Shown in pieces: positions 44,895 through 52,821 of a DNA stretch of 64,000 bases (position 1 is its first letter; the number at the start of each line of letters is the position of its first letter). The stretch lies in assembly GCA_902528375.1 (NCBI GenBank), contig CABZSS010000001.1, forward strand, positions 62,001-126,000. The letters run 5' to 3'. The notes beneath the pieces were generated by a model, which was not told the origin of the DNA, ran no database searches, and saw only the letters and a list, made by a program, of their open reading frames with translations. A program made the position numbers and the translations under genes. Source of the DNA: an uncultured Pelagibacteraceae bacterium. GTDB taxonomy: Bacteria > Pseudomonadota > Alphaproteobacteria > Pelagibacterales > Pelagibacteraceae.

Positions 44895-45632
44895 ATGACA
44901 AATTCAAATTTTTTTATAGTTGGAAAACACCCTGTAACTGAAGCCCTTAAAAATCCCGATAGGAAGGTATTAAGGGTCTTTTTAACTGAAGAAAGCAAAA
45001 AAAATATTAATAGAGAAAATCAAAATATCAACTTGCTTAAAGATGTGAAAGTTTTTTTTAAAACAAAAAAAGAATTAGATAAATATTGTAGAAATGAGCA
45101 AATACTTCACCAAGGATATGTCGCTGAAATAGAGCCATTAATAAATGGTTCATTGAAAGAATTTATTACTTTAAATAAAAAAATTACTCTTGCATGCCTT
45201 CAAAACGTTACTGATCCAAGAAATATTGGTTCAGTTATTAGAAGTGCCGCAAGTTTTAAAATTGACGGTTTAATCGTTCAAGAAAGAATATATCCAGAGA
45301 CCAGTAAAACCATGTACAAAGCAAGCAGTGGTGCCATTGAACACCTAAACATTTTTAAAGTATCAAACATTAATTCAACATTAAAATATTTAAGGGAAAA
45401 AAATTTTTGGGTTTATGGATTTGACAATAAATCAAAAAAAGACTTCTCTGAAATAGATTGGATAGGAAATAGTGTTCTACTGTTTGGGTCTGAAGGATTT
45501 GGTTTAAATCTAAAAACTGAAAAATATATAGATTTTTTTGTAAAGATAAACATCAATAATAAAATTGATAGTTTAAATATATCAAACTCTGCAGCAATAG
45601 TTTTTCATCATCTAAATAGTTTTAGAAAATAA
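44895..45632 (+). CDS. rlmB: 23S rRNA (guanosine-2'-O)-methyltransferase, SpoU/TrmH family
   Basis: ORF; NPDRKVLRVFLTEES, LQNVTDPRNIGSVIRSAASF, LLFGSEGFGLN, LNISNSAAIVFHHL. Confidence 0.9.
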   Translation: MTNSNFFIVGKHPVTEALKNPDRKVLRVFLTEESKKNINRENQNINLLKDVKVFFKTKKELDKYCRNEQILHQGYVAEIEPLINGSLKEFITLNKKITLACLQNVTDPRNIGSVIRSAASFKIDGLIVQERIYPETSKTMYKASSGAIEHLNIFKVSNINSTLKYLREKNFWVYGFDNKSKKDFSEIDWIGNSVLLFGSEGFGLNLKTEKYIDFFVKININNKIDSLNISNSAAIVFHHLNSFRK

Positions 45633-45633
45633 A

Positions 45634-47028
45634 TCAATTTAAAAGATATAACTTTGCTTCCACATGTAAATTTTTTATAGAGTCAACTAATCTGTGATTA
45701 TTTGTATTTTTAGGTTCACATTTGAAGTTTGGATCTGTTGAGTAACAAATTAACCAAAAATCATTAGGTTGGTATTTAAAATCATTATTTTCTATAAAAG
45801 TAAATTTAGAAAATTCGTTATTATTTATATTCTTTATATAATTATGAAACAAAAAGGAAGTGCTACCAAGATCAATCACAAAAACATCAATATTATTTTT
45901 CTTTACGTAACTTAAAGTTTTCTTAAATTCTGGTTTAGTATTTATCCTTTTAAAAATCTCAAGATAGTGATTTGATAAAGTCATCGTAACTAAAAAAAAA
46001 ATTAAAGAAATTTTTATTTTATTATTAGATATTTCATTTATTAGAAAAGGAATGAGAACAAAGATCGGTATTAATATAAATATTATATATCTATCATGAA
46101 ATACGGGTGTTCTTATTATTCCATAAACTAAAGGTATTAAATATGATAAAATAATTAAAGTTAAAAAAAACATATAATTGTTTTCCTTTAATAAAAAAAT
46201 TTTTCTATTTCTTATTATAAGAAAAATTAACAAAATTAAATAGAGATAACCCATTATCTTTGAACCAAAAAATCTTGGAAAATAAAATCCATCTAATACA
46301 TTTTTAATGTCGGAGGAAAGCATATAACTATCAAAAGAGATTTGATAAAGAATATAATTTGAATTAAAAAAAAAATAAGAAATTAGTATCGTTATGTATA
46401 TAAGTAAAAATTTTTTATAGTCTATATTGAATATAAGATGTCGAAAAAATAAATACGTAATTTGTGAAAAAAAAATTATTAATGAAAATGGATTTACCGA
46501 ATAATTCAATACAGAAAACATAACAAAAAAAGTAATATCACTTAATTTTTTTTTATTATTATTTAAAACCTTTAAAAAAAAATAAATATTTAAAGAGCTT
46601 GTTAATAATAAGAGAGAGTATGGTCTTACTTCTTGAGAGTATTTTATGATATAAATACTTATGCACGCAAGAAAAGTGGTTAAAAGGTAATAATTATTTT
46701 TTTTTTCTTGATATGAGATTAACCCAATAAAAATTAGAGATATTGATCCAAAAAATAATGTTAAATATCTTGCTAAATCTGGATTATAACCCACTGTTTT
46801 AAAAAAATATTTTAATACTAAATTAAATAAAATTGGATTATGGAAGTCTGATTTATTGTGTCTGGTTAAAGTTTCAGAATATGATAAATTTGGGTCAGCA
46901 ACCCAAAATGAATTTAGTTCATCTAACCATAAATCTTCAAAGTTAATTTGATAAAAAATTGTAAAAGTACCAATTATAATTATTAATAAATAAAGAATTC
47001 TGTTAAGAATATGGTCATCACTGTTCAT
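45634..47028 (-). CDS. GT-C-type (ArnT/PMT-like) multi-TM glycosyltransferase-like protein
   Basis: ORF; FEDLWLDELNSFWVA acidic DE motif in first periplasmic loop, ~10 TM segments, QEVRPYSLLLL. Confidence 0.65.
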   Translation of the reverse strand: MNSDDHILNRILYLLIIIIGTFTIFYQINFEDLWLDELNSFWVADPNLSYSETLTRHNKSDFHNPILFNLVLKYFFKTVGYNPDLARYLTLFFGSISLIFIGLISYQEKKNNYYLLTTFLACISIYIIKYSQEVRPYSLLLLTSSLNIYFFLKVLNNNKKKLSDITFFVMFSVLNYSVNPFSLIIFFSQITYLFFRHLIFNIDYKKFLLIYITILISYFFFNSNYILYQISFDSYMLSSDIKNVLDGFYFPRFFGSKIMGYLYLILLIFLIIRNRKIFLLKENNYMFFLTLIILSYLIPLVYGIIRTPVFHDRYIIFILIPIFVLIPFLINEISNNKIKISLIFFLVTMTLSNHYLEIFKRINTKPEFKKTLSYVKKNNIDVFVIDLGSTSFLFHNYIKNINNNEFSKFTFIENNDFKYQPNDFWLICYSTDPNFKCEPKNTNNHRLVDSIKNLHVEAKLYLLN

Positions 47029-47115: not shown

Positions 47116-47160
47116 AATGCCCTTGTAGCTCAGCTGGTAGAGCAATTGATTTGTAATCAA
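47116..47160 (+). pseudogene. Partial tRNA-Thr: 5' half only, ends in the anticodon stem
   Basis: 45/45 identity to 51260-51304; downstream sequence (CAGACTTCAA...) cannot complete the T-arm or acceptor stem. Confidence 0.9.
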
Positions 47161-47262
47161 CAGACTTCAATTTAGTTTCAGACACTGCATTTAACATCAA
47201 GTAAAGACTAGCATAATTTAAGCAAAAAAGATTCAATAATTTTATTATTATAAACACCTACT

Positions 47263-47278
47263 AGAAACCGACAGATTA
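47263..47278 (+). repeat. AGAAACCGACAGATTA direct repeat, left copy
   Basis: Identical 16-mer at 51127-51142. Confidence 0.85.
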
Positions 47279-47291
47279 AAAATTTATTCAT

Positions 47292-47903
47292 TTAATTTAA
47301 AATATTAATAATACTTTTTTTAATAGTTTCACTTACTTTGATGGTCCCTTCTTTATTTGGATGAATTCCATCTTTTTGATTTAAGCTTGGATTAAGTGCT
47401 ACTCCTTCAAGAAGAAATGGGATTAAGGTTAAATTATATTTTTTTGATAATTTCGGATAAATATCATCAAACTCTTTTTTATATTTTTTTCCATGAGTGT
47501 TTGGTGCAACCATCCCAGCTAAAATAATTTTAATTTTTTTATTGTTAGCAATATTTATTATTTGTTCTAAATTTTTTTTTGTTTCGTCTGGCTGAATTCC
47601 CCTGAGCATATCATTAGCTCCTAATCCTAAAATGATTAAATCTATTCCTGGTTCTGATAAGCTCCAATCAACTCTATTCAATCCACCTGATGTCGTGCTT
47701 CCAGAAACACTTCCATTAATAACTTTAATATTTAAACCAGCTTCCTTAAGATTATTTTCTAAAACTATTGATAAATGATGTTCTTTAGGTAATCCATATC
47801 CAGCCATCAAACTATCGCCGAATAAAACTACCTTTTCTATTGCACTTGCGTTTATGTGCACTAGAAAGATTATCAAAATTTTTATAAATATAGTTTTATT
47901 CAT
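47292..47903 (-). CDS. tesA: SGNH/GDSL arylesterase / acyl-CoA thioesterase I family (TesA-like), signal peptide
   Basis: ORF trimmed to MNKTIFIKILIIFLVHINASA; VVLFGDSLMAGYGL, VINGSVSGSTTSGGLNRVDW, LGLGANDMLRG, DGIHPNKEG motifs. Confidence 0.88.
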   Translation of the reverse strand: MNKTIFIKILIIFLVHINASAIEKVVLFGDSLMAGYGLPKEHHLSIVLENNLKEAGLNIKVINGSVSGSTTSGGLNRVDWSLSEPGIDLIILGLGANDMLRGIQPDETKKNLEQIINIANNKKIKIILAGMVAPNTHGKKYKKEFDDIYPKLSKKYNLTLIPFLLEGVALNPSLNQKDGIHPNKEGTIKVSETIKKSIINILN

Positions 47904-48567
47904 GAGTACTCTTCTTAAATTAAAAAAAATAAATCTCAAATACCAAACTGGTAAAGATAATATCAATGTTTTAAAGAATATTGATTTAAATATTAAGAAA
48001 AAAGAGACTGTTTCTGTTGTTGGGGAAAGTGGCTCAGGGAAAACAAGTTTAATCATGTTAATTGGGGGGTTGGAGAAACCTAACTCTGGTAAAATAATTT
48101 TCCAAGATCAGGAAATTACAGGCCTTAGTGAAGATGAGGTATCTGAGATCAGAAAGAAAAATATTGGAATAATTTTTCAGTCGTTTTATTTAATTCCTAA
48201 TTACACAGCGGTTGAAAATGTTGCGCTTACACTTGAGCTCAATAATTTTAAAAACCCAGAAAAAGAAGCAAAAATTTTATTAAATCGTTTTGGTTTGAAG
48301 CATCGTTTTAATAATCTACCAAGTCAATTATCAGGTGGTGAACAACAAAGGGTTGCTATCGCTAGAGCAATTGCGATGAAACCAGAATTAATTTTAGCTG
48401 ATGAGCCAACTGGAAACTTAGATACTGAAAATTCTATCATGATTGCAAATATTTTATTTAAGTATGTAAAAGAAGAAGGCTCTTCTTTAATCATGGTAAC
48501 TCATGACACTAAACTTGCTGATAAAGCTAAAAGAAAAATAAAAATTAAAGATGGAAAAATTAAATAA
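47902..48567 (+). CDS. ybbA: ABC transporter ATP-binding protein, YbbA/LolD-like
   Basis: ORF trimmed to MSTLLKLKKINLKYQTG; Walker A GESGSGKTS, LSGGEQQRVAIARA, ADEPTGNLD. Confidence 0.9.
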   Translation: MSTLLKLKKINLKYQTGKDNINVLKNIDLNIKKKETVSVVGESGSGKTSLIMLIGGLEKPNSGKIIFQDQEITGLSEDEVSEIRKKNIGIIFQSFYLIPNYTAVENVALTLELNNFKNPEKEAKILLNRFGLKHRFNNLPSQLSGGEQQRVAIARAIAMKPELILADEPTGNLDTENSIMIANILFKYVKEEGSSLIMVTHDTKLADKAKRKIKIKDGKIK

Positions 48568-51085
48568 CACTTCAGAATTTAGTTTGATTTTAAAATATGC
48601 TTTAAAAGACTTAAGCAGAAATTATCATAAAATATCTAGTATCATTGTTACGCTATTTATAAGTCTTTTTATATTAAGTGCTATTTTCACAATTGAAGAT
48701 AGTCTTAAAAAAGAACTAAATGATAATGCTAAAGCACTTTTGGGTGGAGATTTAGAGATTGATTACAATCGTAATCCAGGAAATTTAAATTTAGTTAATC
48801 AAGTAAAAGAATTTGCAACTGTTTCTCAAATGATTGAGTTCAGTACTATGCTTTCAACAACAGGAAGAAAAAAGAATAAATCATTATTTACTAGAATTAA
48901 AACTGTAGATGAAAAATATCCTTTATATGGAAATGTTGTTTATGAGCCAATTGGTGCTTATGAAAGAATGCAAAATGAACCTTACTCTATCCTTATCAAT
49001 GAAAGTTTATCAAAAACCCTTAATGTAAAAATTAATGAAAAGGTAAAAGTTCAAGATCAAAACTTTACAGTAATTGGAATTATTAAATCAGTACCAGATG
49101 TTAGTGGATTTGTTGCATTTGGAGATTGGGCTTTAGCAGGAAAACAAACTTTAGAAATTTTAAAACTAAATGGAATTGGAAGCTTTTTAAACTATGAATA
49201 CAAAGTAAAATTTAAGGAAAAAGATAAACCTGAAGAGATCGAACAACGAATTGAAGAAATTTTTAAAGATGATCAAAAAGTAAAGCTTAGATATCCTGAA
49301 AATTCTGCAAGTGGAATAAAGAGAATTATCAATAATTTTTCTCAATTTTTATCTCTTGTATCAATCAGTGCAATGTTAATTGCAGGCATTGGTATCGCAA
49401 ATACTCTGCTTTCTTTTATCAATCAAAACAACATGTCTATTGCTGTAAGAAAGGCGGTTGGCTTTTATTCAGGCAATATTAAAACATTATATTACCTTCA
49501 GTTATTTATACTTTTATTCATCATCACTGTTGCTGCTTATGGATCGAGTTTTTTAATTGTACCAATAGTAGATAAATATCTATCTGATGGATTGGGATTG
49601 AATGTTTATCCGTTGTTTTCATTACTTAATTTTTTAAAAATATTTTTAGTTGGTTTGTTAGTTCTTGTAATTTTTTCTATTCCAACAATCAGCTCTATAG
49701 ATCAAGTAAAAGCCTCTAATTTATTTAGAAACGTATTTCAAAACCTTCAATTTTATTATTCTAAAAGATCAGTTGTTCTAAGCTTTGTTTTATTATCTAT
49801 CTTAATTTTATTATTCACCATTGGATCTGAACAACCTTCTTATAGCTTGGGTTACTTTGCTGCTTTTTTTGTTTGTTTAATTGTTTTTTTCTTACTTTCA
49901 AAATTAATCATTTTTTTTCTTAAGAAATTCAAATCAAGTACAATAATTTCTTTAAAAGTTTCAATTAAAAATATTACTCAGACAAAAAGTATAACTCCTA
50001 TAACAGTTATGTCTCTTGGCTTAGGGGTTACTTTGTTATTAACTTTAGCTTTAGTTGGTACAAATTTTCAAAGGGAAATTGCTAAATCTATTCCTGATAT
50101 TGCACCTGATTATTTCTTTGTTGGTATTCAAAAAGGAGAAAGAGAAAAATTTGAACAAGGTATTTTAAATATGGATCCAAATGCATCTATTGAAATTGTA
50201 CCAATGGTTTCATCTGGTATTGTAAAAATTAATGGTATTGATCCTAATACTTATATTAAACCAGATAATGACAGTTACTGGGTTATTGGAAGTGAACGAA
50301 GATCCTCGTGGGTAGAAAATGTGCCTGAAGATAACTCAATTTTAGAGGGCGAATGGTGGGATTTATTAAATCCAGATCAACTTCAAATATCTTTAGATGC
50401 AAAAGTTGCTAAGGATTTTAACGTCCTGTTAGGTGATATCTTTACTTTAAATGTTTATGGACGTGAAATTGAAGGGAAAGTAGTAAATTTTAGAGAAGTT
50501 GATTATCGAGATTTAAGCATCAACTTTGCAATGTTATTTAACCCTCAATTTGCAAAAAATATTCCACATGAGTATTTGGCTACTGCAAAATTTAATTCAA
50601 ATAAATTTGATGAAACTGAAATGCTTGAAATCATGCCAAGTTTATCAATGATTAAAATTGCAGATTATTTATCAAAAGTTAAAGCTGTTTTAAATAAGGT
50701 ATTTATTGCGGTTACATTAATTTCAGCGATTACCATTGTTATAGGCTTAATCGTAATTTCAAGTGCAATTATGGTTCAGGGAAAAGTAAAAGAATATCAA
50801 AATTTGGTTTTCAAAATTTTAGGTTTTTCAAAAAAACAAATTATTTTTTCATCTTTAATTGAATTCATCATTGTCTTTAAATCTGTAATTTTAATTGCAG
50901 TATTCTTTGCTGTGATTGGTTCAAAATTTATTATGGAAAATATTTTTGAATTAGTGTGGATGTTTGACTTTAAGATTTTAATTTATTTAGGACTTTCAAT
51001 TGGTTTTATTACCTTAGTTTTAATATTATTAACTAACTTAAAATATCTAAATCCTAAAGTTTATCCTCTAATAAGAAATCAATAA
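48551..51085 (+). CDS. ybbP: ABC transporter permease, YbbP/FtsX-like (two FtsX domains)
   Basis: ORF; N-terminal LLGGDLEIDYNR, two FtsX-like TM blocks, directly downstream of ybbA. Confidence 0.85.
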   Translation: MEKLNNTSEFSLILKYALKDLSRNYHKISSIIVTLFISLFILSAIFTIEDSLKKELNDNAKALLGGDLEIDYNRNPGNLNLVNQVKEFATVSQMIEFSTMLSTTGRKKNKSLFTRIKTVDEKYPLYGNVVYEPIGAYERMQNEPYSILINESLSKTLNVKINEKVKVQDQNFTVIGIIKSVPDVSGFVAFGDWALAGKQTLEILKLNGIGSFLNYEYKVKFKEKDKPEEIEQRIEEIFKDDQKVKLRYPENSASGIKRIINNFSQFLSLVSISAMLIAGIGIANTLLSFINQNNMSIAVRKAVGFYSGNIKTLYYLQLFILLFIITVAAYGSSFLIVPIVDKYLSDGLGLNVYPLFSLLNFLKIFLVGLLVLVIFSIPTISSIDQVKASNLFRNVFQNLQFYYSKRSVVLSFVLLSILILLFTIGSEQPSYSLGYFAAFFVCLIVFFLLSKLIIFFLKKFKSSTIISLKVSIKNITQTKSITPITVMSLGLGVTLLLTLALVGTNFQREIAKSIPDIAPDYFFVGIQKGEREKFEQGILNMDPNASIEIVPMVSSGIVKINGIDPNTYIKPDNDSYWVIGSERRSSWVENVPEDNSILEGEWWDLLNPDQLQISLDAKVAKDFNVLLGDIFTLNVYGREIEGKVVNFREVDYRDLSINFAMLFNPQFAKNIPHEYLATAKFNSNKFDETEMLEIMPSLSMIKIADYLSKVKAVLNKVFIAVTLISAITIVIGLIVISSAIMVQGKVKEYQNLVFKILGFSKKQIIFSSLIEFIIVFKSVILIAVFFAVIGSKFIMENIFELVWMFDFKILIYLGLSIGFITLVLILLTNLKYLNPKVYPLIRNQ

Positions 51086-51126
51086 TAAAAATTTTTAAAT
51101 TTCTAGATTAAACTCCCACACCGACA

Positions 51127-51142
51127 AGAAACCGACAGATTA
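51127..51142 (+). repeat. AGAAACCGACAGATTA direct repeat, right copy
   Basis: Identical to 47263-47278; preceded by a second partial unit ACCGACAAGA. Confidence 0.85.
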
Positions 51143-51262
51143 GTCACAAATGGTCTACAACAAGGTACAAAGTTACAAATACGAGAATTACCTTTTAATA
51201 ACCAAATCTTTTAAGTGTTGATTTAATTGACTTTTAACATTAAAAACTTCGTTAATACAAAT

Positions 51263-51338
51263 GCCCTTGTAGCTCAGCTGGTAGAGCAATTGATTTGTAA
51301 TCAATAGGTCCGCGGTTCGAGTCCGTGCGGGGGCACCA
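51263..51338 (+). tRNA. tRNA-Thr(TGT)
   Basis: Complete cloverleaf GCCCTTG...TTTGTAA...GGTTCGAGTCC...CGGGGGCACCA. Confidence 0.96.
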
Positions 51339-51345
51339 TATTATT

Positions 51346-52821
51346 ATGCACACTAATAAAATAATTAAATTTTTTTTAATTATTAATCTTATAATTTTTA
51401 TTACAGGTTATATCATTGGATTTAATAAATCATTTTGGATTGATGAAGTTGTATCTATTAATTATGCTTTAAAAATTCCATCTTTAAGTTTAAAAGAAAT
51501 CTTCACTCAAGATATACATTCACCATTTTTTTATTTTCTATTGTTTTTAGGAGAAAATATTTTAGGATCTATTTCAAAAAATGGAAATTTTGATCTCAAT
51601 TTTTTAAGACTTATTAATATTTTTGGATTTATACCAATTTATTATTCTTACCTGTTAATTAAAAAAAAAAAAAACACAGCAAATTTAAATATAAGTATTT
51701 TTTTTCTTTTACTTATTTCTAGCAATTATTTTTTTCATTATATTTTAGATTTAAGAATGTATTTTTTATTACTTAGTTTTTCATTATTAATAAATGTTAT
51801 AAATTTGATTAATACAGTTGAAAATGAAAACAAAATTGCCTTTTTAATATCTTCGATTTTACTTTCTATGCTTCATGTCTATGGCCTAGTTATATCAATG
51901 AGTATATTGTTTTTTAGATTTATCAAAAATATTTACTTTAAAGATAAAAGAAAGCTAATTTTAAATTTAACTTTTATAATTTTACTTTTAATTATTTTTA
52001 TAATTTTTTACTTTCCATCTCTTTTTAATGAAGAAAATAAATTAAATATTGGATGGATTAAAAATAATTTATGGTATTACAGAATCTTTATAGAATATAC
52101 CATTGCAACTTTAGTTCTTATTTTTGGAATTATTATTTTATTATCTTGGATTTATAAGAAAGAAATAGTCAAAAAACAAAACATTAGTAAGTTTTTTAAA
52201 AGCGATTTTTTTTATGAAACAGTTGTTTTAGCTTTGCCTGCAGTCATTTTAATGTGTGTAGTTTTAGCTATTTCTTTTCTACTTTTTCCAATTGTTCACT
52301 ACAGATCATTAATTGTAATTTTTCCAAATTTAGTTTTATATGCATCAATTTTATCTGTGCTTTTAATAAATATAAGAAAATATAAAATATTTTTTATTTT
52401 TTTTTTGATTTTCCTAACTTTTATTAATTGCAATTTTTATTTTAAAAATATGATTAATACTCATGAAAATATTGAATGGGTAGTGAAAAAAACGTTTACT
52501 AAAAATTGTAAGAATATTCCTGTATATTTTAATGACAATACAAAAGATAATTTAATTCCTTTGCTGAAAGATATTGTTTTGTTGTATTCAAAAAATAATA
52601 GACCAATCTTACTTATGTCTGAATTAAATATAAGTGAATATGAAAAAGCTTTAAATATTAATGAAAATTGTAAAATATATTTTTTTACTTTTCATTCAAA
52701 AAATTTTGAGAATAACGTTGATTATTTGAATAAAAGGGATTTAACATTAAAAATCATATATGCTCCTAATGTAATGATAAGAAACTTTAGTAAAGCTGGT
52801 GCAATTGCTTTATCCAATTAA
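51346..52821 (+). CDS. GT-C-type multi-TM glycosyltransferase-like protein (start trimmed to MHTNKIIKFF)
   Basis: ORF; NKSFWIDEVVSINYALK DE motif, many TM segments, resembles the 45634-47028 product. Confidence 0.65.
   Translation: MHTNKIIKFFLIINLIIFITGYIIGFNKSFWIDEVVSINYALKIPSLSLKEIFTQDIHSPFFYFLLFLGENILGSISKNGNFDLNFLRLINIFGFIPIYYSYLLIKKKKNTANLNISIFFLLLISSNYFFHYILDLRMYFLLLSFSLLINVINLINTVENENKIAFLISSILLSMLHVYGLVISMSILFFRFIKNIYFKDKRKLILNLTFIILLLIIFIIFYFPSLFNEENKLNIGWIKNNLWYYRIFIEYTIATLVLIFGIIILLSWIYKKEIVKKQNISKFFKSDFFYETVVLALPAVILMCVVLAISFLLFPIVHYRSLIVIFPNLVLYASILSVLLINIRKYKIFFIFFLIFLTFINCNFYFKNMINTHENIEWVVKKTFTKNCKNIPVYFNDNTKDNLIPLLKDIVLLYSKNNRPILLMSELNISEYEKALNINENCKIYFFTFHSKNFENNVDYLNKRDLTLKIIYAPNVMIRNFSKAGAIALSN

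Follow-up and report, generated by a model that had tools for sequence, protein, structure and literature searches.

A probable non-autonomous integrative element with interchangeable cargo at the 5′ side of a SAR11 tRNA-Thr gene

How did an exact copy of the 5′ half of a tRNA-Thr gene come to lie about 4.1 kb upstream of the intact gene, with no integrase between the two? The question is raised by a stretch of 64,000 nucleotides (the window; positions 62001-126000 of contig CABZSS010000001.1, here C1, assembly GCA_902528375.1) from the 0.87-Mb draft genome (68.5% complete) of an uncultured SAR11 bacterium of the Pelagibacteraceae. The segment 47116-51304 of the window is probably a non-autonomous integrative element, which uses the tRNA 5′ half as the core of its attachment site (attP) and depends on a recombinase supplied in trans, probably by a phage. 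The segment was inserted into tRNA-Thr, relatives retain the empty site, its ends recur around different cargo and in different species, and uncultured marine phages carry the same half gene beside an integrase.

The two copies of the repeat (Table 1) match over 45 nt with zero mismatches, and over 48 nt if one mismatch is allowed; the 45-mer was seen in no shuffled sequence. ARAGORN called a single tRNA-Thr(TGT) gene in the window, which contains the right copy, and did not call the left copy, for which the Rfam score was 25 bits, compared to a cut-off of 29. The left copy comprises tRNA positions 1-42 (47119-47160), lies upstream of the intact gene in the same orientation, and spans the 5′ half together with the anticodon stem-loop, ATTGA-TTTGTAA-TCAA, breaking off one base short of the stem end. 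The preliminary description of this DNA had reported this duplication and its end point, with only tesA-, ybbA-, and ybbP-like open reading frames (ORFs) and no recombinase between the copies, and it was accurate in each respect, Pfam agreeing on the genes. A chance local duplication or an assembly artefact might be suspected in a draft genome of this completeness, but four independent single-cell genome records, and several further genomes, show the same structure; together with the absence of the 45-mer from shuffles, these results refute this explanation, which retains next to no probability.

To place the locus in the genus, 100 tRNA-Thr loci were sampled, and the spacing on the 5′ side was counted over 96 of them. 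The usual gene order was nusG-secE-tuf-rlmB-tRNA-Thr-nadK. The gap between rlmB and tRNA-Thr measured 39-57 bp at 81 of the 96 loci, and 0.85-6.7 kb had been inserted at the remaining 15. The closest relative found, G008, has rlmB, the same GT-like gene that precedes the left copy in the window, and an intact tRNA-Thr gene, with no 4.1-kb segment; 2272 bp of the left flank of the window (rlmB, the GT-like gene, and the tRNA 5′ half) align to it unbroken at 82% identity. The same empty arrangement was found in G049. Therefore, the 4.1-kb segment was inserted into tRNA-Thr, and the left copy represents the original 5′ half of the host gene. Most loci also carry an insertion on the 3′ side of the gene, before nadK (more than 100 bp in 58 of 77 sampled loci), many with conventional 3′-half tRNA copies, sometimes several in series. 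Such copies lie downstream of the gene at loci L057 (G106), L072 (G093), L053 (G004), and others, up to about five in tandem and 0.7-2.5 kb apart, and some of the 3′-side islands hold integrases (beside the tRNA in G039, and in G072).

When 399 genomes of the genus were searched with each end of the element, 10 and 17 genomes matched. Copies of the 5′ half beside rlmB were present in G019, G073, G076, and G142 among the first 100 loci, in G155, G202, G334, G335, G380, G026, and G371 (the last with an older insert before the copy), and in the Pelagibacteraceae single-amplified genomes (SAGs) AG-325-D03, AG-343-L02, AG-313-I15, and AG-430-N08, of which AG-343-L02 is the same genome as G335, and AG-430-N08 the same as G026. 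The tesA-ybbAP genes lie between the common ends in the window, G035, G016, G335, G174, G182, G026, AG-325-D03, and AG-313-I15, the 5′ fragment being decayed in G035 and G016. Elsewhere, the same ends enclose other cargo: type III restriction-modification genes in a 6.3-kb insert of G019, whose 118 bp following the 5′ fragment and 145 bp preceding the tRNA are nearly those of the window; TctA/TctB/TctC and AbrB in G371; an autotransporter with a propeller domain in G202, with similar proteins in G334, G380, and G246; a 1031-aa PDZ protein and small ORFs in G155; and an SNase with other ORFs in G355. The family thus ranges from about 2.4 to 6.3 kb. The preliminary description had proposed a search of relatives for empty sites and for different cargo at the same repeat, and both were found. 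Further 5′-half islands, with unrelated ends, sit at the same tRNA in G076 (L090), G073 (L049), and G142 (L104); in the G076 island, a C5-methyltransferase-like gene is accompanied by phage-like ORFs and by GGTATAG repeats with a spacing of about 11 bp, as in the phage attPs described below.

At least seven other genomes carry the element at this site with 95-99% DNA identity to the window, whereas, where comparable, their rlmB and tuf are 70-75% and 80-85% identical to those of the window. On these identities, the element has spread between SAR11 species without its neighboring genes. Homologous recombination, in which a donor's flanking genes took the place of the rlmB-tRNA interval, with the 5′ fragment as a by-product, is very improbable: although the presence of tesA-ybbAP at six or more loci of the genus indicates that other means of movement exist, the homology of the cargo to those loci ends at a pair of inner repeats (see below) rather than in flanking genes, the adjoining rlmB and tuf do not share the high identity of the element, and the fragment always comprises the 5′ half of the tRNA as far as the anticodon stem. 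The same recurrence of a compact element with intact ends in divergent hosts bears on the suggestion, made in the preliminary description, of a deletion remnant, that is, a prophage or island that lost its own integrase and left the tesA-ybbAP genes behind. The ends do resemble phage attP, several 5′-side inserts without a 5′ fragment look decayed (L068 of G034, L060 of G124), and G076 has a separate 5′-type insert with phage-like ORFs. However, several other cargos sit exactly between the same repeats, and the cargo is bacterial rather than phage by Pfam. A remnant is therefore unlikely, and of the readings first offered it fits worst, given that other species hold this compact element at 95-99% identity; a satellite mobilized in trans, or a locus used for repeated cassette exchange, fits best, the mobilization in trans itself being an inference.

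Both ends of the element, which measure about 120 and 155 bp, are closed by a second, inner pair of direct repeats, 25 nt long and 92% identical (Table 1). Across elements, the inner repeats form pairs spaced by 11-12 bp, which lie 86-105 bp and 119-121 bp from the core; in G155, ACACCGACAAGAACAAGACAGATT is present at both ends. In a comparison of nine elements, some of which are related, left and right inner repeats differed by 14 mismatches within elements and by 22.3 between elements (p = 0.012), which is what a single protein binding to both would predict. These repeats may act as arm-type integrase sites, since their design resembles that of phage arm-type sites. Of 22 near-complete genomes, 19 had the tesA-ybbA-ybbP genes, normally in a single copy and as a compact 3.8-kb module, which in many relatives lies at non-tRNA loci. 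At these other loci, homology to the window covers only about 47277-51102, ending at the inner repeats, and the repeats themselves are missing there in 19 genomes. Therefore, the cargo and the ends are separate units.

One possibility, though on balance rather unlikely, is that the inner repeats are instead the recognition site or target-site duplication of a second mobile system, which swaps cargo within a fixed docking sequence at tRNA-Thr. The cargo switches exactly at ACCGACAGATT on both sides, as such a system would require, and in G273 the left repeat accompanies tesA-ybbAP at a different locus; the pairing at 11-12 bp and the fixed distances from the core, like the 11-bp pairs of phage attP, and the absence of the repeats from tesA-ybbAP at other loci in 19 genomes, argue against it. 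The copy in G273 (L289, 6000-9980) lacks the right end and is a possible secondary-site insertion: it lies where an FAD oxidoreductase gene reaches its stop codon, and the sequence there, GTTTTGTAATCAAAAC, is similar to the core at the anticodon loop. The gene ends of two relatives read GTTCTGTAA and GTTCTTTAA. On the minus strand of the window, 51143-51262, and in its homologues, an antisense frame ending in LYQLSYKGIRINEVFNVKSQLNQHLKDLAIKR and a stop codon is open in five right-end copies and could be the tail of a gene that once overlapped attP. No gene to which such a tail (ending in SYKGIRINEVFNVKSQLNQHLKDLAIKR and a stop) could be assigned was found; matches to the right-end peptide in tblastn were mostly phage tRNA genes, and no conclusion here draws on the frame.

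If the element moves by site-specific recombination, which recombinase serves it? No integrase or recombinase gene was found within the element, and none was seen in the elements of relatives with other cargo. In the whole draft genome, the sole PF00589 match was a Xer-like gene about 89 kb away (G000:C1:19678), and each of eight carrier genomes tested, including the 99%-complete G155, held one Xer-like PF00589 gene only. With no integrase in the element and only Xer-like genes in the carriers tested, the recombinase probably comes from outside.

A candidate source was found among uncultured marine phages. The 41-nt tRNA-Thr 5′ half occurs in 33 IMG/VR contigs, about 29 of them without the 3′ half; L204 and L216 hold complete or nearly complete tRNA genes, and in L189 and L217 the 3′ part differs. 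Where the upstream sequence is long enough, most contigs carry an ORF for a tyrosine integrase of about 380-420 aa, located 0.2-1.7 kb upstream of the core, with PHROG integrase matches down to E = 5e-32, weaker Pfam matches, and an invariant catalytic R, R, Y triad (Arg225, Arg333, Tyr369). The hosts of these phages are taken to be SAR11 because of the 41-nt identity. Of 24 distinct phage sequences, 22 have on the Y side of attP an 8-mer whose second copy, matching at 7 or more of its 8 positions, follows at a spacing of exactly 11 bp, compared to 2.4 expected, with other spacings near chance; these pairs, mostly 37-49 bp past the core, look like arm-type integrase sites. Many of the phage contigs (L187-L219) also share a hairpin, GCCGAAAAGAATCTTGCGATTCAATTCGGC, followed by TATATATAAG, directly before the tRNA half, which may be a terminator or a promoter for the restored tRNA. 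A scan with the tRNA 3′ half returned full tRNA genes of other sequence and no 3′-half attPs, and INPHARED held neither a near match to the 5′ half nor a relative of the phage integrase. The preliminary description had also proposed a search for a full prophage with an integrase at this repeat; the integrase beside the same 5′ half was found in these phages, and no integrated prophage with an integrase was found at the 5′ side of tRNA-Thr in the genus.

These findings suggest a model for the movement of the element. By the established rules of tyrosine recombinases, the anticodon stem would supply the inverted binding sites of the core, and its 7-nt loop would be the overlap. The core here has this arrangement, with inverted repeats around a putative 7-bp overlap, ATTGA-TTTGTAA-TCAA(T), identical in about 29 phage attP-like sites. 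In the proposed mechanism, the attP of the circular element would consist of arm repeats, about 120 bp, the tRNA 5′ half, about 105 bp, and arm repeats; the junction of the circle would read from the right end (...GAATGCCC) through the tRNA 5′ half into the left end (CAGACTTCAATTTAG...). A tyrosine recombinase would pair this attP with the anticodon stem-loop of the host tRNA-Thr gene, and strands would be exchanged within the loop TTTGTAA. As attP holds the 5′ half, the host 5′ half would stay at the left, and the element 5′ half, joined to the host 3′ half, would restore the tRNA, now preceded by a new upstream region. The recombinase would act in trans, most likely provided by an infecting phage with this tRNA 5′ half as its own attP, and tesA-ybbAP would be one among several interchangeable passengers. 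The earlier proposal that the element supplied both the tRNA 5′ half and its promoter holds for the upstream region, which is element-derived; no sigma-70-like promoter site was found upstream of tRNA-Thr in the window.

Several results weigh against this model. Searches turned up no phage and no integrase that has the arm motif ACACCGAC/ACCGAYAG, and exact viral scans with the left end, the right end, and the arm pair of the window gave nothing, or only four unrelated contigs. The phage integrase family was not detected in the 399 genomes of the genus, in a search in which the positive control worked, and no helper was seen inside a host. Neither an excised circle nor an attP junction was observed. 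The tesA-ybbAP module also moves without these ends, and the spread of its element could have used homologous recombination through conserved flanks, yet the flanking rlmB differs by 25-30%.

Table 1. Features of the tRNA-Thr locus, in window coordinates
Feature	Position	Strand	Basis
rlmB-like rRNA methyltransferase, left chromosomal neighbor in sampled relatives, outside element	44895..45632	+	Pfam SpoU_methylase; spacing from tRNA-Thr in sampled loci
Multi-transmembrane GT-like gene, older rlmB/tRNA-Thr insertion common to G008 and G049, outside element	45634..47028	-	In L038 and L076 without element or 5′ fragment; no Pfam match
Left att core copy, tRNA 5′ half left by integration	47116..47160	+	Exact 45-nt repeat; left flank aligns to G008 empty site
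Anticodon loop TTTGTAA in left copy, probable 7-bp crossover (overlap) region, stem ATTGA / TCAA(T) either side	47150..47156	+	Sequence; tyrosine recombinase rules
Left element end (Y side of attP)	47161..47278	+	92-98% identical in G019 and SAGs, including elements with other cargo
Left arm-type-like pair ACACCTACTAG-AAACCGACAGATTA, direct repeats, 11-bp spacing, ~105 bp from core	47254..47278	+	Sequence comparison
Cargo module tesA-ybbA-ybbP	47277..51102	.	DNA homology to same module at other chromosomal loci begins and ends here
tesA-like GDSL esterase/lysophospholipase	47292..47906	-	Pfam Lipase_GDSL_2
ybbA-like ABC transporter ATPase	47899..48567	+	Pfam ABC_tran
ybbP-like FtsX/MacB-type permease, 844 aa	48551..51085	+	Pfam MacB_PCD, FtsX
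Right element end (X side of attP), now upstream region of tRNA-Thr	51103..51259	+	86-97% identical in ~14 other genomes, several different cargos
Right arm-type-like pair ACACCGACAAGA-AACCGACAGATTA, 12-bp spacing, ~120 bp from core	51118..51142	+	Sequence comparison
Right att core copy, carried in by element	51260..51304	+	Exact 45-nt repeat
Intact tRNA-Thr(UGU), probably chimeric, 5′ half element-derived, 3′ half host-derived	51263..51338	+	ARAGORN; empty-site comparisons

The three cargo genes are the only ones between the 45-nt repeats. Between the att sites, Pfam detected none of the structural, replication, or integrase genes of phages that would mark a prophage or its remnant, and ybbP had only three matches in phage records, at 22-26% identity. 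Pfam likewise found no integrase, regulator, or packaging-interference genes, as in satellites resembling phage-inducible chromosomal islands, in the window element or its sister cargos. One multi-transmembrane gene of 18-22% GC without a Pfam match flanks the element on each side (45634-47028 and 51346-52821). These AT-rich genes resemble hypervariable surface-modification genes; the right one, which has no 3′ tRNA fragment with it, separates tRNA-Thr from nadK.

How does this element compare with known systems? Cis-mobilizable elements (CIMEs) are flanked by att sites and lack recombination genes. The element shares with them the two att sites and the absence of a recombinase, and it would likewise need the integrase of a related element, but no link to an integrative and conjugative element was seen here, complete attP-like ends are kept over many cargos and host species, and the core is shared with phages. 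In the Islander collection, an integrase is required inside the island, and a 5′ fragment marks only 159 of 3919 islands (4%) (PMC4383910). As in those 5′-fragment islands, the ends are marked by an intact tRNA gene and a displaced same-strand fragment, which, being a 5′ fragment, lies upstream; the crossover would be centered on the anticodon, and relatives show the empty site. Unlike them, the element has no integrase, measures about 2.4-6.3 kb across its family, and belongs to one family with swapped cargo. Tycheposons, known from Prochlorococcus and from Methylophilaceae (PMC10872708), are also cargo elements of aquatic bacteria bordered by a tRNA, but the islands given that name in the Methylophilaceae paper are described as 4-200 kb long and contain a tyrosine recombinase gene, which the elements of about 2.4-6.3 kb described here lack.

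Phages that integrate at tRNA genes offer a second comparison. The pelagiphages HTVC011P, HTVC025P, and uv-Fonsiphage-EPL integrate at tRNA-Leu(TAG), and their own tRNA-Leu replaces the lost host gene (PMC6811365). The use of a SAR11 tRNA gene as attB, and a phage tyrosine integrase, are features in common, whereas here the tRNA-Thr 5′ half is duplicated and the tRNA would be restored as a chimera. In the tRNA-dependent lysogeny of mycobacteriophages, the phage integrase also uses a tRNA gene, but the core is about 10 bp, and the tRNA is not rebuilt and is complemented by a phage tRNA (PMC10865867), in contrast to the 42-nt half gene that would restore the tRNA here. Islands at tRNA genes, 5′-fragment islands, integrase-less att-flanked elements, and SAR11 phages that use tRNA genes are thus each already known; a search of the open literature found no integrase-less family with interchangeable cargo at the 5′ side of one tRNA. 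SAR11 bacteria, whose genomes are small and streamlined, rank among the ocean's most abundant bacteria, and gene exchange among them is poorly understood. Whether they harbor a family of minimal cassettes, each a phage-type attP with interchangeable bacterial cargo, which ride on the integrases of uncultured phages that target this tRNA from its 5′ side and move metabolic, surface, and defense genes across species at one dock, is a proposal for which the odds appear about even. Recombinase-free elements of 2.4-6.3 kb, with one docking site and matching integrase-bearing phages, would provide a concrete, testable route of gene transfer, and one that island searches requiring an integrase, as in Islander, would miss.

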